From: a virus
IMG/VR virus record: IMGVR_UViG_3300047678_000146
Coordinates: 1-25,687 of that record
Strand: one strand, 5' to 3'
DNA: 25,687 nucleotides
The notes under the pieces are model-generated. The model was not told where the DNA came from, searched no databases, and saw nothing but the letters and a program-made list of their open reading frames with translations. This document shows, one piece after another, positions 3,473 to 9,176 of the stretch; the stretch's first letter is position 1; the number at the start of each line of letters is the position of its first letter. The position numbers and the translations under genes were made by a program.

Positions 3473-4237
3473 TTAATTAATTGGATAAAATTGTTTTAAT
3501 TGATCAATTATATTAGAACCATATTGATTTTTAGTTTTTTCAATAAATTCTAATACTGTAAATTTATCTTTTTCAAGATTAATATTATTTTGATTAATAA
3601 ATAACATTCTACCCATATTACAACTTCCTGTTAAAAAATAATGCCAATTAAAATAATCTATCGCTTTGTATTTTTTTTTTAACGAAGAAAATTTTTCTTT
3701 AAATTTAAAAATACGTTGTTCAATTGATAATTTAATTAATAATTTTTCTTGTAGCGACTCTACAGCTTCATGAATAGTACTACCATGAGCAAATTGATTT
3801 TCTCCTTTTGCTATATAACACGGTAATAAGGATAAATCTGGTTGTAAGATAAATCCTTTGGCAATATTATTTTTAATAGAAGTAATAATAGTTTGTGTTT
3901 TGTCTATAATGTTTACTGGTTGGTTATTAAATGATTTAATACCATCACCATAACCACTACCATCACCATCACCATCACCAACACCATCACCATCACCATT
4001 ACCAGTACCATAACCATTACCTTCACCGTCACCATAACCATTACCATAACCATCACCATTACCAGTACCATAACCATTACCTTCACCGTCACCATTACCA
4101 TAACCATAACCATAACCATAACAAGTACCAGTACCAGTACCATAACCATTACCATAACCATAACCATAACCACTACCCTTATCATTACCGACAATAGTAT
4201 GTATTGCTAAAAAAGAATTTATTTTTTGTATGTCCAT
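3473..4237 (-). CDS. Gly/Tyr/Asp/Asn tandem-repeat protein with conserved C-terminal domain
   Basis: A 254-residue protein in three parts. Residues 1-20 are a short N-terminal segment. Residues 20-99 are almost pure Gly-X dipeptides (GYGYGNG, GDGEGNGYG, GTGNGDG). Residues 100-254 form a folded domain with KSFNNQPVNIIDKTQTIITS, IAKGFILQPDLSLLPCYIAKG, FAHGSTIHEAVESL and FNWHYFLTGSCNMGR. I recall this G-X tract and domain pair from many uncharacterised proteins of gut Bacteroidota phages. The His, Cys and Arg residues in HGxTxxEA and TGSCxxGR may form an active site, but the activity is unknown. The start overlaps the upstream gene by 19 nt. Confidence 0.75.
   Translation of the reverse strand: MDIQKINSFLAIHTIVGNDKGSGYGYGYGNGYGTGTGTCYGYGYGYGNGDGEGNGYGTGNGDGYGNGYGDGEGNGYGTGNGDGDGVGDGDGDGSGYGDGIKSFNNQPVNIIDKTQTIITSIKNNIAKGFILQPDLSLLPCYIAKGENQFAHGSTIHEAVESLQEKLLIKLSIEQRIFKFKEKFSSLKKKYKAIDYFNWHYFLTGSCNMGRMLFINQNNINLEKDKFTVLEFIEKTKNQYGSNIIDQLKQFYPIN
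3941..4177. repeat. hexanucleotide tandem repeat array (Gly-X coding)
   Basis: Roughly forty degenerate 6-bp units (CCATAA, CCATCA, CCATTA, CCGTCA, CCAGTA on the plus strand), each encoding Gly plus Tyr, Asp, Asn, Glu, Thr, Val or Ser. A higher-order 60-bp copy is present: 3991-4035 is identical to 4051-4095. Because units are multiples of six, gain or loss of units keeps the reading frame, so length variation between relatives is expected. Confidence 0.9.
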
Positions 4238-4536: not shown

Positions 4537-4595
4537 TTTTATTTGATTTTATTTGATTTAGTTTATAAAATATATTTTTTATGAGTTTAATAAAT

Positions 4596-4710
4596 AACTA
4601 ATCAATCAATTGTAATTTCAGGAGCTTCACCTGCTTTCTATTATACTTAGAACCTCCAAGCTAATGGTCAGTTCAGAGCTTTTTACTTTATTACAATATC
4701 ATGATTAGTT
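4596..4710 (-). ncRNA. inverted-repeat bounded structured element (115 nt)
   Basis: The ends pair: 4596-4604 with 4702-4710 (AACTAATCA / TGATTAGTT), a 4x4 internal loop, then 4609-4615 with 4691-4697. Inside, read on the minus strand, are a hairpin CAGG-(7)-CCTG (4619-4633) and a hairpin GAACT...GGTTC. The same terminal structure recurs at 6288-6582 around a gene. It lies in the gap after the stop of the 4718-5467 gene, whose 3' end is part of an exact repeat with the other copy. No tRNA is recognised. Confidence 0.5.
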
Positions 4711-4735
4711 AATAAGTTTATAGATTTTGTTCAAT
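4690..4735. repeat. 46-bp exact direct repeat, copy 1
   Basis: Positions 4690-4735 are identical to 6562-6607. The repeat covers one arm of an inverted repeat plus the last five codons and stop (IEQNL then TAA, minus strand) of the 249-residue gene. The other copy ends a related reading frame in the same way, which suggests duplication or gene conversion of a gene end. Confidence 0.9.
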
Positions 4736-5467
4736 TTCTGAAAGATTATTTTCTCCTGTTAATTGAAAGTTTCTACCTACCTCAAAAGCTAATTTACCAT
4801 AAGTAATCATTTCAGTTTTACTATACATCTTCTCCTTTACAGGAAGAATAGTAACATATCCTTGAGGATTGAGTTTAGGTTGTCCTTTATATACTACATT
4901 TTCATATTCTCCTTCCATTATTTCTTCTATTGTTTCAAAATCATCCTCAAAATCCATCATAGCATCTACAATAGGAGTTCCATTATTTATTTCTCTTACC
5001 CACGCTTGTTGAAAGTCTGGAGATATTTGAGGTAATACATCTTTTTGTTGAAAATTTATAAATCCTGTTGAACCAACTTCATAATCTTTGGTTGCTTCTT
5101 CAAAGTCTAAAGACTTATTGTCTGTTGCTACCACTTTTCTGCATTCATTAATAGAAGGATGATTAGTTGTATTTTTAGATAATACTATTCTTCCTGATAC
5201 ACCTGCACACTGGTCTAAATATTCTACTCCACCTAACTCAGTAATAAACCAATCTCCTTTTTTAATAATTTCATTTACTATGGCATAAAGATGATGTGGT
5301 TGCCAATACCGATTACCTCCATCTTCAGCTACCTTCCAATTTTTGTTAATTGTAAAAGTACCTACTTTTGTACTATCATCTATATACATTTTCTTGATAC
5401 ATTTCATTATTGTACCAATAGTTGCTTTTTGTGTAGGTAAAGCATAAATTTTTATTTCTTGTTTCAT
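4718..5467 (-). CDS. hypothetical protein with C-terminal MYS/MYT module (249 aa)
   Basis: A 249-residue protein that I do not recognise over most of its length. The N-terminal part is mixed alpha/beta, with WKVAEDGGNRYWQPHHLYAI at about 45-63. A strongly acidic region lies at about 175-200 (MMDFEDDFETIEEIMEGEYE). The C-terminus (about 207-249) has ILPVKEKMYSKTEMI and ends SEIEQNL. This resembles a short tail with MYTxEEV...W-EQ seen at the ends of unrelated gut phage proteins. A second copy of this tail ends the frame at 6590-6886. The ATG at 5467 gives an uninterrupted frame. Confidence 0.7.
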   Translation of the reverse strand: MKQEIKIYALPTQKATIGTIMKCIKKMYIDDSTKVGTFTINKNWKVAEDGGNRYWQPHHLYAIVNEIIKKGDWFITELGGVEYLDQCAGVSGRIVLSKNTTNHPSINECRKVVATDNKSLDFEEATKDYEVGSTGFINFQQKDVLPQISPDFQQAWVREINNGTPIVDAMMDFEDDFETIEEIMEGEYENVVYKGQPKLNPQGYVTILPVKEKMYSKTEMITYGKLAFEVGRNFQLTGENNLSEIEQNL

Positions 5468-5505
5468 AATAGTAATTATGTTTAATAGTAATTAAATAAT
5501 GTTGT

Positions 5506-5778
5506 TTAAGATTTTAATTGAAGTATTTCATCTAAATCTTTAGTTAATTCAGGGTCTTCAATACCTTCATCTGTAGCCATTGACATATAGTCACTCATAA
5601 GTTTACATAGATTTATAATATTTGTATCAAGAGGTATTATTACACTATCTTGACAATTTTCTTCAAGAGTATCTTCAGCTTCTTTAAGTGTGTCAAATAT
5701 CAAAATATCACCACTTCCATCATCTTTACAAATGATGTTTAAGTTTCCATTGAAGTTATCTAATTGTATATATTGCAT
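5506..5778 (-). CDS. hypothetical acidic protein (90 aa)
   Basis: A 90-residue acidic protein with many Asp and Glu residues, unrecognised beyond resemblance to short acidic proteins common in Bacteroidota phages. It has an N-terminal beta-rich half with DGSGDILIFDTLKEAEDTL and a helical C-terminal half. The start at 5778 lies about 48 nt downstream of the large structured RNA at 5826-6190 on the same strand, so the RNA could be a processed leader of this gene. Confidence 0.62.
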   Translation of the reverse strand: MQYIQLDNFNGNLNIICKDDGSGDILIFDTLKEAEDTLEENCQDSVIIPLDTNIINLCKLMSDYMSMATDEGIEDPELTKDLDEILQLKS

Positions 5779-5825
5779 ATTTTTAAGTTTTAGTAATGAG
5801 TTTTAATAGTAATTAAGTAAAAGAA

Positions 5826-6190
5826 ATTAAAAAAATCTTTCTACACATAGTTTGTAATACATCAGTTTATCTAATTGCTGATTTCAACAGGGATTCAGCC
5901 TATCTATATTACAAACTACCCATTCCTTAAAAGGTTGATTAATTCCTTGATAGCTTTTTATAGTCAATTAAGACATCAGGAAGTGTATTAATCAAGTAAT
6001 TTAATATCTTAAATTGTAATAGAATATAAGGTTGCAACATACATTTTTGGACAGTTAGGAAAACAACTAATGTTATTTTATAAGGGTTTATTTGCTAACC
6101 TTACAACTCTGACTATTTATTTATATACTCATAAACTATTACAAAATAAGATACTAAACTACAATGGTTGTGTAGAAAGAATGTTTTAAT
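5826..6190 (-). ncRNA. large multi-branched structured RNA candidate (about 365 nt)
   Basis: No gene lies here, but the sequence is packed with nested inverted repeats. The closing helix pairs 5826-5832 with 6184-6190 and, after a 3x3 loop, 5836-5847 with 6169-6180 (12 perfect bp). Directly stacked on it is a hairpin with perfect 12-bp arms (5848-5859 with 5907-5918), holding an inner hairpin. Next is a hairpin at 5935-5995 (8 bp plus 8 bp with bulges). A long arm pairs 6006-6022 with 6136-6152 (15 of 17), then 6027-6037 with 6092-6103 (11 bp, one bulge). The two mismatches in the long arm are U-U on the minus strand and A-A on the plus, mildly favouring minus. I do not recognise the family. 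Confidence 0.62.
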
Positions 6191-6200
6191 CCTTGTAAAA

Positions 6201-6260
6201 TAGTTGTAATTACATGATATTCATAATTGTAAGAATATGTTATTTACCTTGTTACAACTA
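6201..6260. other. 60-nt inverted repeat hairpin
   Basis: TAGTTGTAA at 6201-6209 pairs perfectly with TTACAACTA at 6252-6260. It lies directly beside the large RNA candidate and may be an extra domain of it or a separate hairpin. No T-run follows on either strand, so it does not look like a terminator. Confidence 0.45.
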
Positions 6261-6287
6261 AATTACTTGGATTATTTAAAAAAAATT

Positions 6288-6582
6288 AACTAATCAATCA
6301 ATTGCAATGCTTGTTTTTTAAAGAGTATAAACTTTAAGTAGTGAAAAATACCACCTTAAATCATACCCTTTGTATTCAAGAGCTTTTTTAACTTCTTGAT
6401 GAAGTCTTTGAATTTGCAATCTTGAATCATGACAACAAAATAAACAAATATCAGAAGGAATGTTAATTTCTTCTGTAATGTCTAAATCATGTCCTGTTGG
6501 GTCAATCCCAAAAACAACTTTGAGTTTCATGCTTTTTCTTTTTTAGTTATAATTAAAAAGCATTACAATATCATGATTAGTT
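6288..6582. repeat. inverted-repeat cassette enclosing a small gene
   Basis: Arms 6288-6312 and 6558-6582 pair as 9 bp, a 4x4 loop with the same bases as at 4596-4710, then 12 bp (6301-6312 with 6558-6569). One position is a U-G pair on the minus strand but C-A on the plus, favouring minus-strand RNA. The arms frame the 70-residue gene at 6318-6530. The shared arms show the two cassettes are related while their contents differ. Confidence 0.6.
6318..6530 (-). CDS. hypothetical protein inside inverted-repeat cassette (70 aa)
   Basis: A 70-residue unrecognised protein. It starts at an ATG at 6530 behind an A/T-rich leader. The N-terminal half looks beta-rich with Asp/Glu residues (VVFGIDPTGHDLDITEEINI), and the C-terminal half is helical (LQIQRLHQEVKKALEY). 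The Cys pair CLFCCH at 30-35 is notable but gives no complete metal site. The gene is the only content of the cassette bounded by the repeats at 6288-6312 and 6558-6582, so it could be cargo. Confidence 0.58.
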   Translation of the reverse strand: MKLKVVFGIDPTGHDLDITEEINIPSDICLFCCHDSRLQIQRLHQEVKKALEYKGYDLRWYFSLLKVYTL

Positions 6583-6607
6583 AATAAGTTTATAGATTTT
6601 GTTCAAT
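6562..6607. repeat. 46-bp exact direct repeat, copy 2
   Basis: Identical to 4690-4735. It includes the right arm of the 6288-6582 inverted repeat and the last codons and stop of the frame at 6590-6886. A further related block, one mismatch in 31 bp, lies at 6688-6718 versus 4822-4852, encoding the start of the MYS/MYT tail. Confidence 0.9.
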
Positions 6608-6886
6608 CCATTTATCAGATAAATTACCATTATAATTTATTCCATAATTAATAGCATCAGTAATTAATTCAATCACTTTTTCTTTTGTATACATCTTCTC
6701 CTTTACAGGTAGAATAGTTTTAGAAATTTTATATTTTAAACAAGTATCAAACCCATCTTCCCATGCAAGTTTAATACGAGTTAATGCACCTACACCATTT
6801 TTATCTGCATCTTTTAAAGCATACTGTTGTGCAGCAACTATTTTTCTATCCTCTATGTTCGTACCTACAGGAAGAATAGTTTTCTT
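6590..6886 (-). pseudogene. frameshifted downstream half of a gene, with MYT tail module
   Basis: A 98-codon open frame with no start codon in a useful place; TAA at 6887-6889 lies directly upstream. It reads KKTILPVGTNIEDRKIVAAQ, then a helical stretch, then a second KTILPV block followed by KEKMYTKEKVIELI and the ending WIEQNL. The preceding gene (6846-7034) overlaps it in a different frame. A single-base frame change near the A4-G-A4 run at about 6883-6892 would join them into one protein of about 150 residues. Either an indel has broken the gene or +1 frameshifting occurs. Doubled ILPV blocks also fit a tandem tail duplication. Confidence 0.5.
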
Positions 6887-7034
6887 TTAATCTTTCAATA
6901 GGTACAAAATAAGCGAATGAACCGTATTTTTCTAATCCTACTTCATCATTTATTAAATGACATTCAGATTCAAACCAATCATAGTCCAATAATTCTTGAA
7001 TATTATTCCAAGTTACAATAGTGTATAATTTCAT
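6846..7034 (-). CDS. conserved small phage protein, C-terminus probably frameshifted (62 aa)
   Basis: A 62-residue reading frame. Residues 1-52 (MKLYTIVTWNNIQELLDYDW, then ECHLINDEVGLEKYGSFAYF and VPIERL) resemble a small gut-phage family with the IVTWxExQ...LINDExGLxxxGSxAYFV pattern, whose function is unknown. The last ten residues look like out-of-frame sequence. In the +1 frame the DNA encodes KTILPV, the join seen elsewhere in this window. The true protein probably once continued into the frame at 6590-6886. Confidence 0.6.
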   Translation of the reverse strand: MKLYTIVTWNNIQELLDYDWFESECHLINDEVGLEKYGSFAYFVPIERLKENYSSCRYEHRG

Positions 7035-7041
7035 AGTTTTT

Positions 7042-7500
7042 AAAGATTAATTAATTTTATTGCGAAGTCATTAACTCGCTGCACAATGTTGTTAGATGCG
7101 CACATAACAACTACTAAACAAATATTACTATTTTTGTTAGGCATAAATAAATAGTGTTTCCAATCGATTAGACTATTATATTATGCTGCCACCACATATT
7201 TTACTTAAATTATATACTATGAAGTACGACTGCTACAACAGGAATTTCAACCTGCTCGTACCGTAACGTCTAAAGCCTTTAAATAGTTAATTTCAATAGT
7301 ATTTTCAAATATGTTTTACAATTTTCTACCTATTCTTATGTATCTTTTGTCATTAGGTATAAATTATTAATTAAATCAGTAAAAACAACAGCATAATCTT
7401 CGTCAAGATTACTTGTTTTTGTTGTTTACCTACCTGCTCTAAACAGAACATTAATCTTTCATTATGGAGCTAACATAATTACTTGAAGGTTTTAGTTTTG
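7042..7500 (-). ncRNA. gene-free region rich in hairpins, possible second large RNA
   Basis: No credible gene lies between 7035 and 7503. Strong local inverted repeats are 7088-7111 (7-bp arms), 7141-7186 (12 of 15 paired), 7224-7261 (GTACGA / TCGTAC with an inner CAGG / CCTG), 7327-7359 (6 bp) and 7394-7411 (7 bp, 4-nt loop). A 9-bp pairing of 7042-7050 with 7451-7459 could close the whole. The inner hairpin at 7224-7261 shares a motif with the RNA at 5826-6190 (minus strand AGG, UGAA loop, CCUGUUG). The outer boundary is uncertain because the closing helix is all A/T except for one G-C pair. Confidence 0.4.
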
Positions 7501-7503
7501 AGA

Positions 7504-8459: not shown

Positions 8460-9176
8460 TTATTCGCTAATTACAGTTTGTTTAGCTTCCCAAGCATGTC
8501 GAGCTGTTTGAACTGCTTTGCGATATGCTGCATCGGTCATTCCGGCTGTACGAACAACAGAAGATGTATCGAATTTAGCTTCTTCCTTTGTTTCAGGAGC
8601 TTCTTCGAGATCATCAAATGAATTAAGGTCAATACGCTTTTCAGGAACTGCTAATGCTGCACGTTGTAAATCAAAATGGATTTTAGCCTTTTGGTTTAAT
8701 TCCATGATTTGCAATTGTGCAGGAGATAGTACTTGAAGTGTACCAACTTCTACATTAGTAATCGAAGCATGATTCTGTTTGATAACAATTGCTTCACCGT
8801 TACGTCCAACTATTTCATCACCAACTTCACGTACTTCTACGTCAGCGGAAAATGGAATGTTTTTTGCGGCAATTACAAAGTTATCAACCGTTAAACCAGT
8901 TCTGGATGACATGGCAAACAGTGTTGTTTCATCGCAATCGAATACGTATTCATTACGTGTTGGATTATATCCAAAAGCGGTAATTTGATTACCTTTACTG
9001 TTAGTTAAACCTTCTAAAGCTCTGTCAAGAACAGTAAAAGATTTATCTGCTTTTAGATAAATACGATGTGTGTTGATGCGAGATGTTTTACCGTCTGCAT
9101 TTTGCGTTGCTACCTGCATGGAAGCTGGTTTTAGTGCAATCGCAAGAATTTGTGAATTGATTTTAATTTTATTCAT
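8460..9176 (-). CDS. hypothetical protein, probably abundant (238 aa)
   Basis: A 238-residue protein with noticeably less AT-rich codons than its neighbours (more Ala, Val, Gly and C-ending codons). The N-terminal 160 residues look beta-rich (VEVREVGDEIVGRNGEAIVI), followed by a helical stretch and an acidic linker at about 188-200 (DDLEEAPETKEEA). It ends with a basic/aromatic tail, AYRKAVQTARHAWEAK. An OB-fold single-strand DNA-binding protein would fit the beta core, acidic linker and dedicated terminator, but the acidic part is not at the very end and no SSB motif is certain. It is transcribed as a single unit with its own leader and terminator. Confidence 0.7.
   Translation of the reverse strand: MNKIKINSQILAIALKPASMQVATQNADGKTSRINTHRIYLKADKSFTVLDRALEGLTNSKGNQITAFGYNPTRNEYVFDCDETTLFAMSSRTGLTVDNFVIAAKNIPFSADVEVREVGDEIVGRNGEAIVIKQNHASITNVEVGTLQVLSPAQLQIMELNQKAKIHFDLQRAALAVPEKRIDLNSFDDLEEAPETKEEAKFDTSSVVRTAGMTDAAYRKAVQTARHAWEAKQTVISE

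Follow-up and report, generated by a model that had tools for sequence, protein, structure and literature searches.

Few known phages are as abundant as the crAss-like phages, to whose kin one of the commonest viruses of the gut belongs. Most of their early gene arm is still without an explanation. Several phage and virus RNAs offer points of comparison for a structured RNA from this arm. GOLLD RNAs are often longer than 800 nt and lie near tRNA islands. The exonuclease-resistant RNAs (xrRNAs) of flaviviruses form a three-way junction in which a hairpin loop pairs 3' of the closing helix, and they occur in tandem copies. The put antitermination RNA of HK022 is structured, lies on the early phage strand and is not tied to one gene. 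GOLLD (RF02032) is large and elaborately folded, occurs in phages and prophages, has a constant and a variable part and is of unknown function (PMC12286853). ROOL (RF03087) is a phage RNA of several hundred nucleotides, with pseudoknots and no known partner (PMC12286853).

Here we analysed a 25,687-nt stretch of viral DNA (IMG/VR record IMGVR_UViG_3300047678_000146, positions 1 to 25,687; hereafter the window). As judged by comparison with related loci, a gene-free gap in it very likely encodes a structured RNA of a family that is absent from Rfam and is carried by many environmental crAss-like phages. GOLLD and ROOL are the nearest to it in kind: like GOLLD, it is a large structured phage RNA with a constant and a variable part, and like ROOL, it is a phage RNA of several hundred nucleotides with pseudoknots (PMC12286853). 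It differs from GOLLD in its core of about 80 nt and its other structure, and from ROOL in its architecture. In Rfam 15, the GOLLD, ROOL and intron models were unmatched in the window and 28 family loci, with no GOLLD or ROOL match above the gathering threshold; by Rfam score, the family is neither of the two. tRNAs lie within kilobases of some family loci, and none was found in the window. Among the open-access papers searched, we found none that describes such an RNA from crAss-like phages.

Host genome of the window

The window, a 25.7-kb fragment, is a crAss-like phage contig as judged by its protein matches. Its TerL, portal and major head protein matched phrog_6681, phrog_6547 and phrog_11589, all crAss-like types. 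In a tblastn search of GenBank phages, the best matches of the terminase were crAss-like phages (33-35% identity), and the nearest capsids in IMG/VR were 48-60% identical to that of the window. The early-arm proteins had no relatives in the sets searched, and the route to related phages through the neighbouring early proteins yielded none.

Fold and strand of the gene-free gap

A sequence-only reading of the window had proposed a non-coding RNA in a 365-nt gene-free stretch (5826-6190). An ORF check confirmed that the stretch is gene-free and gave the gap a different size, 539 nt (5779-6317). No ORF of at least 40 aa was found inside 5779-6317 (standard code, TAG=Q), and a TGA=W reading gave a single 46-aa frame only; an alternative genetic code in the gap was rejected, as no long frame appeared. 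The three elements that had been described, namely an end pairing of 19 bp round a 3x3 loop, a 12-bp hairpin stacked on the closing helix and a long arm, were all present in the plus-strand MFE fold (-83.8 kcal/mol, z -4.74, an energy that none of 100 shuffles reached). The minus strand reached -99.0 kcal/mol (z -7.50; 0 of 100 shuffles) and, for the whole gap, a z of -6.75. Folding beyond chance was thus borne out on both strands. Both flanking genes (5506-5778 and 6318-6530) lie on the minus strand, so the statement that the RNA shares the strand of its neighbours holds for the complement and not for the printed strand; the fold models place the RNA on the minus strand, collinear with both neighbours. 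In a coarse scan of 200-nt segments, many coding stretches also had a low z, so that folding energy alone is insufficient and the homologues decide. A search of Rfam 15, which had been proposed as a check, returned no match for the window beyond chance matches.

Homologues and the wider family

A 30-nt blastn match (E 0.003) was found in contig G008 (capsid identity 52%). This match, too, falls between genes, its position and its strand with respect to the early genes agreeing with those in the window, and the fold there contains arms P1, P1b, P2, P3 and P4, ordered as in the window. A pattern from the P2/P3 boundary common to the window and G008 led to a third member on contigs L058 and L059; the L058 terminase is just 27% identical. 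The covariance model R1, built from two homologues, was run on 79 terminase loci and matched only L142, weakly (E 0.3). This fourth member is without P2 and P3 and led to a short form of the module. With ATTACAAYTRAGTRYAGA, the stretch common to L058 and L142, as the pattern, a scan of IMG/VR returned at least 120 stretches, and at least 95 distinct modules remained when a perfect P4 partner was required. A second covariance model, R2, gave 93 matches at E<0.1 in 100 loci. Blastn with the module against 50,697 GenBank phages gave nothing credible, and the module was absent from the reference phages crAss001, crAss002, crAssphage ZA, cr127_1, cr3_1, cr115_1, cr271_1 and Fpv1.

Several candidates were set aside. 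Blastn matches in G006 (at 53118) and G013 (at 2225) lie inside coding genes and were ascribed to chance. The loop-pattern matches L062-L069 and the huge-phage record LR756500 (E 0.4) were rejected because they are without the family fold. A pattern scan of bacterial genomes gave 11 stretches, none of which R2 matched.

Strongly folded gene-free gaps were also seen in L035, L039, L025 and L048 (left arms of G004/G006, G001 and G007), where they lie comparably far upstream of the capsid gene. Neither R1 nor R2 matches them; they may hold other RNAs.

Architecture and covariation

The family core is predicted to fold as a three-way junction of P1 (UGCAC/GUGCA), P1b (CUCAC/GUGAG) and P4 (CAGUUGUAAU/AUUACAACUG), with a pseudoknot in which the P1b loop CCC pairs with GGG just 3' of P1; this conserved core carries variable arms. 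The consensus of the short form is UUAAUGCACCAU(U/AA)CUCAC-UUCCCAAGG-GUGAG-CAGUUGUAAUA...UAUUACAACUG-A-GUGCA-GA-GGG. The long form adds P2 (GUGGAUAUAAAGACUU...UAAGAUGUGAAACCAC) and P3 (CUGAUUAA...UUAAUCAG) inside P1b. The P4 tip varies from about 12 to 200 nt and has no common words, and modules stand in tandem in L176, L178, L209, L256 and L261.

In an alignment of 53 short forms, pairing was found in 99.3% of cells, as against 27-50% in slid controls; the members were picked by a sequence pattern that drew in part on P4, the P1 5' strand and the loop motif, so the independent support comes from P1b and the 3' side of the pseudoknot only. P1b showed two-sided changes at 5/5 pairs while remaining 100% paired, and two pairs of the pseudoknot also changed on both sides. 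Here, the loop CC(C/A) pairs with (G/U)GG 3' of P1, in the variants CCC/GGG, CCA/UGG and CAC/GUG. G-U pairs replaced standard pairs in P1 and P4 of short-form members. Among the long forms, covariation is seen in P1b, P2, P3 and the pseudoknot, and the window keeps the pairs throughout; in L165, the P1b pairs UCUA/UAGA are standard.

A second conserved hairpin (CAAGGGUUGCAACCUUGUGAGAGUAC / CAAGGGTTGCAACCTTGTGAGAGTAC) was found in 17 places (e.g. L177:975, L187:8058, L181:1153), in several loci 0.15-0.6 kb upstream of the module, and has no Rfam match; it is perhaps a second RNA of the same transcript. Directly 3' of the L058 module (L058:431-670), there is a second long stem, TTTACACTTAGTTGTAATTTG / CAAATTACAACTAAATGTAAA, which has the word UAGUUGUAAU/AUUACAACUA as in P4.

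The window as a long-form member

The window contains every long-form element, with P1, P1b, P2, P3 and P4 in order and with the P2/P3-boundary and P4 motifs (Table 1).

Table 1. Predicted parts of the RNA in the window
Feature	Position	Strand	Basis
Whole RNA unit (long-form module; P1 5' strand through 3' strand of the pseudoknot)	5837..6179	-	fold z -7.5; full ordered descriptor; homologues G008, L058
P1 5' strand CUUUCUACACA, core UACAC 6170-6174	6169..6179	-	pairs with 5837-5847
P1 3' strand UGUGUAGAAAG, core GUGUA 5842-5846	5837..5847	-	fold, long-form alignment
P1b 5' strand CCAUU	6163..6167	-	pairs with 5920-5924
P1b 3' strand AAUGG	5920..5924	-	fold, long-form alignment
P2 5' strand GUAGUUUAGUAUCUUA	6147..6162	-	fold, long-form alignment
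P2 3' strand UAAGAUAUUAAAUUAC	5996..6011	-	matrix match together with P3 5' strand
P2-arm insert, larger than in other members	6012..6146	-	fold
P3 5' strand UUGAUUAAU	5987..5995	-	fold, long-form alignment
P3 3' strand AUUAAUCAA	5935..5943	-	fold, long-form alignment
CCUUUUAAGG, counterpart of family loop CUCCCAAGG	5925..5934	-	long-form alignment
P4 5' strand UAGUUUGUAAU	5908..5918	-	fold, long-form alignment
P4 3' strand AUUACAAACUA	5848..5858	-	fold, long-form alignment
Additional arm 5' of the unit, GUAAUUUAGUUGUAA...UUACAACUAUUUUAC	6187..6274	-	inverted repeat, fold

Compared with the other long forms, the window has two-sided changes at one P1, four P1b, one P2, one P3, two pseudoknot and one P4 pair, and a standard pair is kept at every one of them. 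Four of the five P1b pairs and pair 2 of the P1 core are changed on both sides relative to the family. In the pseudoknot, UUU (5929-5931) can pair with AAG (5837-5839) where the family has CCC/GGG, so that three pairs are kept; AAG is also part of the P1 3' strand, and this pairing competes with the outer part of P1. The P2-arm insert contains UUGCAACCUU, a part of the family's second conserved hairpin. The inverted repeat of the additional arm (6187-6209/6252-6274) is 83% complementary and adjoins the RNA unit; the fold suggests that the arm may belong to the same RNA.

A matrix of the P2/P3 boundary was built without the window and scored over the whole window on both strands. The best position was 6011 on the minus strand with 15.0 bits (next 10.7), a score equalled in 1 of 400 shuffled gaps. 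We also wrote an ordered descriptor of four steps from the other members. It was found in full in the window gap, G008, L058, L256 and L155, and incompletely in the long forms L222 and L259. None of 270,322 dinucleotide-preserving shuffles of the window gap passed step 2, and nowhere else in 1.37 Mb of crAss-like DNA (both strands counted) was step 1 passed; the tolerances were set after the window was seen, so that this is not a blind test.

These results bear on the possibility that the window RNA is not homologous to the wide family, being an unrelated structured gap that resembles it. The fitting of the tolerances speaks for that possibility, as do the models: R1 and R2 gave no significant match in the window, R3, a covariance model made without the window, had its best match at the right place and strand but weakly (E 0.19), and sequence-only nhmmer profiles of single segments left the window unmatched. 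However, R3 likewise misses L058, probably because its arms are long, although the L058 core is plainly canonical. All helices of the window share order, strand and genome place with those of G008 and L058, and neither the shuffled gaps nor other crAss-like DNA came near the full descriptor. We therefore regard non-homology as very improbable; the window very likely belongs to the family, as indicated by its architecture and the bridging members.

The sequence-only reading fared as follows. Its non-coding RNA of unknown class is supported by homologues of the same architecture, compensatory changes and the lack of an Rfam match. The unit of 365 nt stands as a structured RNA and not as a self-contained type, being one long-form member of a family with a core of about 80 nt, variable arms and possible tandem copies. 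The covariation that it named as a check was found across the family, while the window's own place there rests on architecture and bridging members.

Genomic context of the family

Among 78 modules without an overlapping frame, both neighbours lie on the module strand in 50, and 18 more stand at a locus end with their one visible neighbour on that strand. The median length of the gaps that hold modules is 580 nt, and the longest measures 1.8 kb. At loci that include TerL, the module lies 3.7-11.1 kb upstream of it, on the other strand in 20/21 cases; the remaining case is a secondary match on the plus strand of L058, a locus in which the main module does run opposite to TerL. The window RNA is 6.9 kb upstream of TerL, on the opposite strand, in a gap of the early arm. 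DNA polymerase, where seen, lies on the module's strand 2.6-10 kb downstream (8/8), and a single matching locus was found in every large contig searched (88-127 kb; 14/14). Small genes, for the most part of unknown kind and not the same from phage to phage, adjoin the modules. A constant gene class downstream of the modules was not found, the largest neighbour family occurring in 10 loci. Ten family loci carry the window's TerL/portal families or phage DNA polymerase; 57/86 loci showed none of the marker genes used, so the host assignment rests on the remaining ones.

Two Hatchet ribozymes (L177:46-208 and L156:6387-6553) lie on the module's strand 1-1.2 kb upstream of it in crAss-type loci, and L236 has a hammerhead-like string, CTGATGAGTC, after the module.

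Possible function of the RNA

Conserved structure, the early strand, a single locus and changing neighbours together point to a stand-alone RNA and not a one-gene switch. The reading that we favour, at roughly even chances, is a trans-acting RNA scaffold or decoy made early. The non-coding RNA would be an early-strand product of a crAss-like phage. Comparison between members shows a core that folds into the P1, P1b and P4 junction, a pseudoknot between the P1b loop and the sequence that directly follows P1, optional arms P2 and P3 and a very variable P4 tip. Such an RNA could act in trans early in infection as a rigid, modular scaffold or decoy. A protein of the phage or the host, or further copies of the RNA itself, might recognise its constant core, whereas the arms would differ between phages.

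The main rival, which we consider distinctly less probable, is a cis-acting element of the early transcript that serves the downstream genes, for instance through antitermination (as in HK022 put), stability or processing. The module lies in the early arm, mostly inside a collinear gene run, on the strand of the replication genes and with DNA polymerase downstream of it. Like put, it is structured, on the early strand and not tied to one gene; unlike put, it is much larger and variable. Gaps of up to 1.8 kb, changing neighbours, variable long arms and tandem copies exceed what a simple leader needs, and the differing neighbours speak against a switch for one gene. No constant downstream gene class of the sort expected for a riboswitch or gene-specific leader was found in the family loci. 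A group I or II intron had no Rfam match in the window and 28 family loci, and the module lies between genes.

By analogy with flavivirus-type xrRNAs, the junction and the loop-to-3' pseudoknot might make up a knot at which a ribonuclease halts, so that the RNA downstream or upstream is spared. This is unlikely. The three-way junction, the pairing of a hairpin loop with sequence 3' of the closing helix and the tandem copies do recall xrRNAs, but the likeness is in topology only: sequence and host are unrelated, a different hairpin loop pairs, and the ring-closing contact, a second pseudoknot, was not found in the family.

Equally little probability attaches to an element acting at the DNA level, such as a replication origin with a folding strand or a replication-priming transcript. 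One locus per genome near replication genes, and an A/T-rich sequence with many inverted repeats, would suit it. Against it, G-U pairs replace standard pairs in P1 and P4, one strand folds better than the other, and the modules are oriented as the early genes are. The long inverted repeat of P1+P4 also suggested a mobile element bounded by terminal inverted repeats, which was set aside since the hairpin between the repeats covaries and the module has one conserved place per genome.

Returning to the trans-acting RNA, we tentatively propose a wider possibility, less probable than the favoured reading itself: a new class of modular phage RNA that a large branch of environmental crAss-like phages would produce early. 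Its pseudoknotted modules of the three-way-junction type, single or in tandem and with arms that can be swapped, would assemble into an RNA-based structure or serve as an exonuclease-proof decoy during host takeover. A covarying pseudoknotted RNA that is present once per genome and absent from Rfam offers a well-defined object for mapping transcripts, for pull-down and for structural studies, and the consensus and list of loci make the family testable at once.

Other features of the window

All of the following are on the minus strand. A common TTAATTACTATTAAA-type motif stands at 5470-5499 and 5791-5820, just upstream of two early genes, and is perhaps a promoter or ribosome-entry signal. A 254-aa protein with a long GYGYGNGDG repeat is encoded at 3473-4237. 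A strong intrinsic terminator (8454-8421; 14-bp stem, T6) follows a 238-aa gene (8460-9176) and sets this gene apart from the early genes on its far side.

Two near-identical flanks (46 nt exact, 28 nt 89%) recur at 4589-4735 and 6281-6607, enclosing a G+C-richer folded 73-nt stretch at one site and a 70-aa gene (6318-6530) at the other; both sites follow copies of one gene. As judged by these repeats, this is a cassette that has been duplicated and whose two copies differ in content. At 6600-7034, repeats D1, D2 and D8 and an interrupted frame mark a broken paralogue of the gene at 4718-5467 (249 aa). Another folded gene-free gap (7035-7503, -87.5 kcal/mol) contains ACGGTACGAGCAGGTTGAAATTCCTGTTGTAGCAGTCGTACTTC and AGCTCCATAATGAA, the latter with one near copy in L234, beside a family module.
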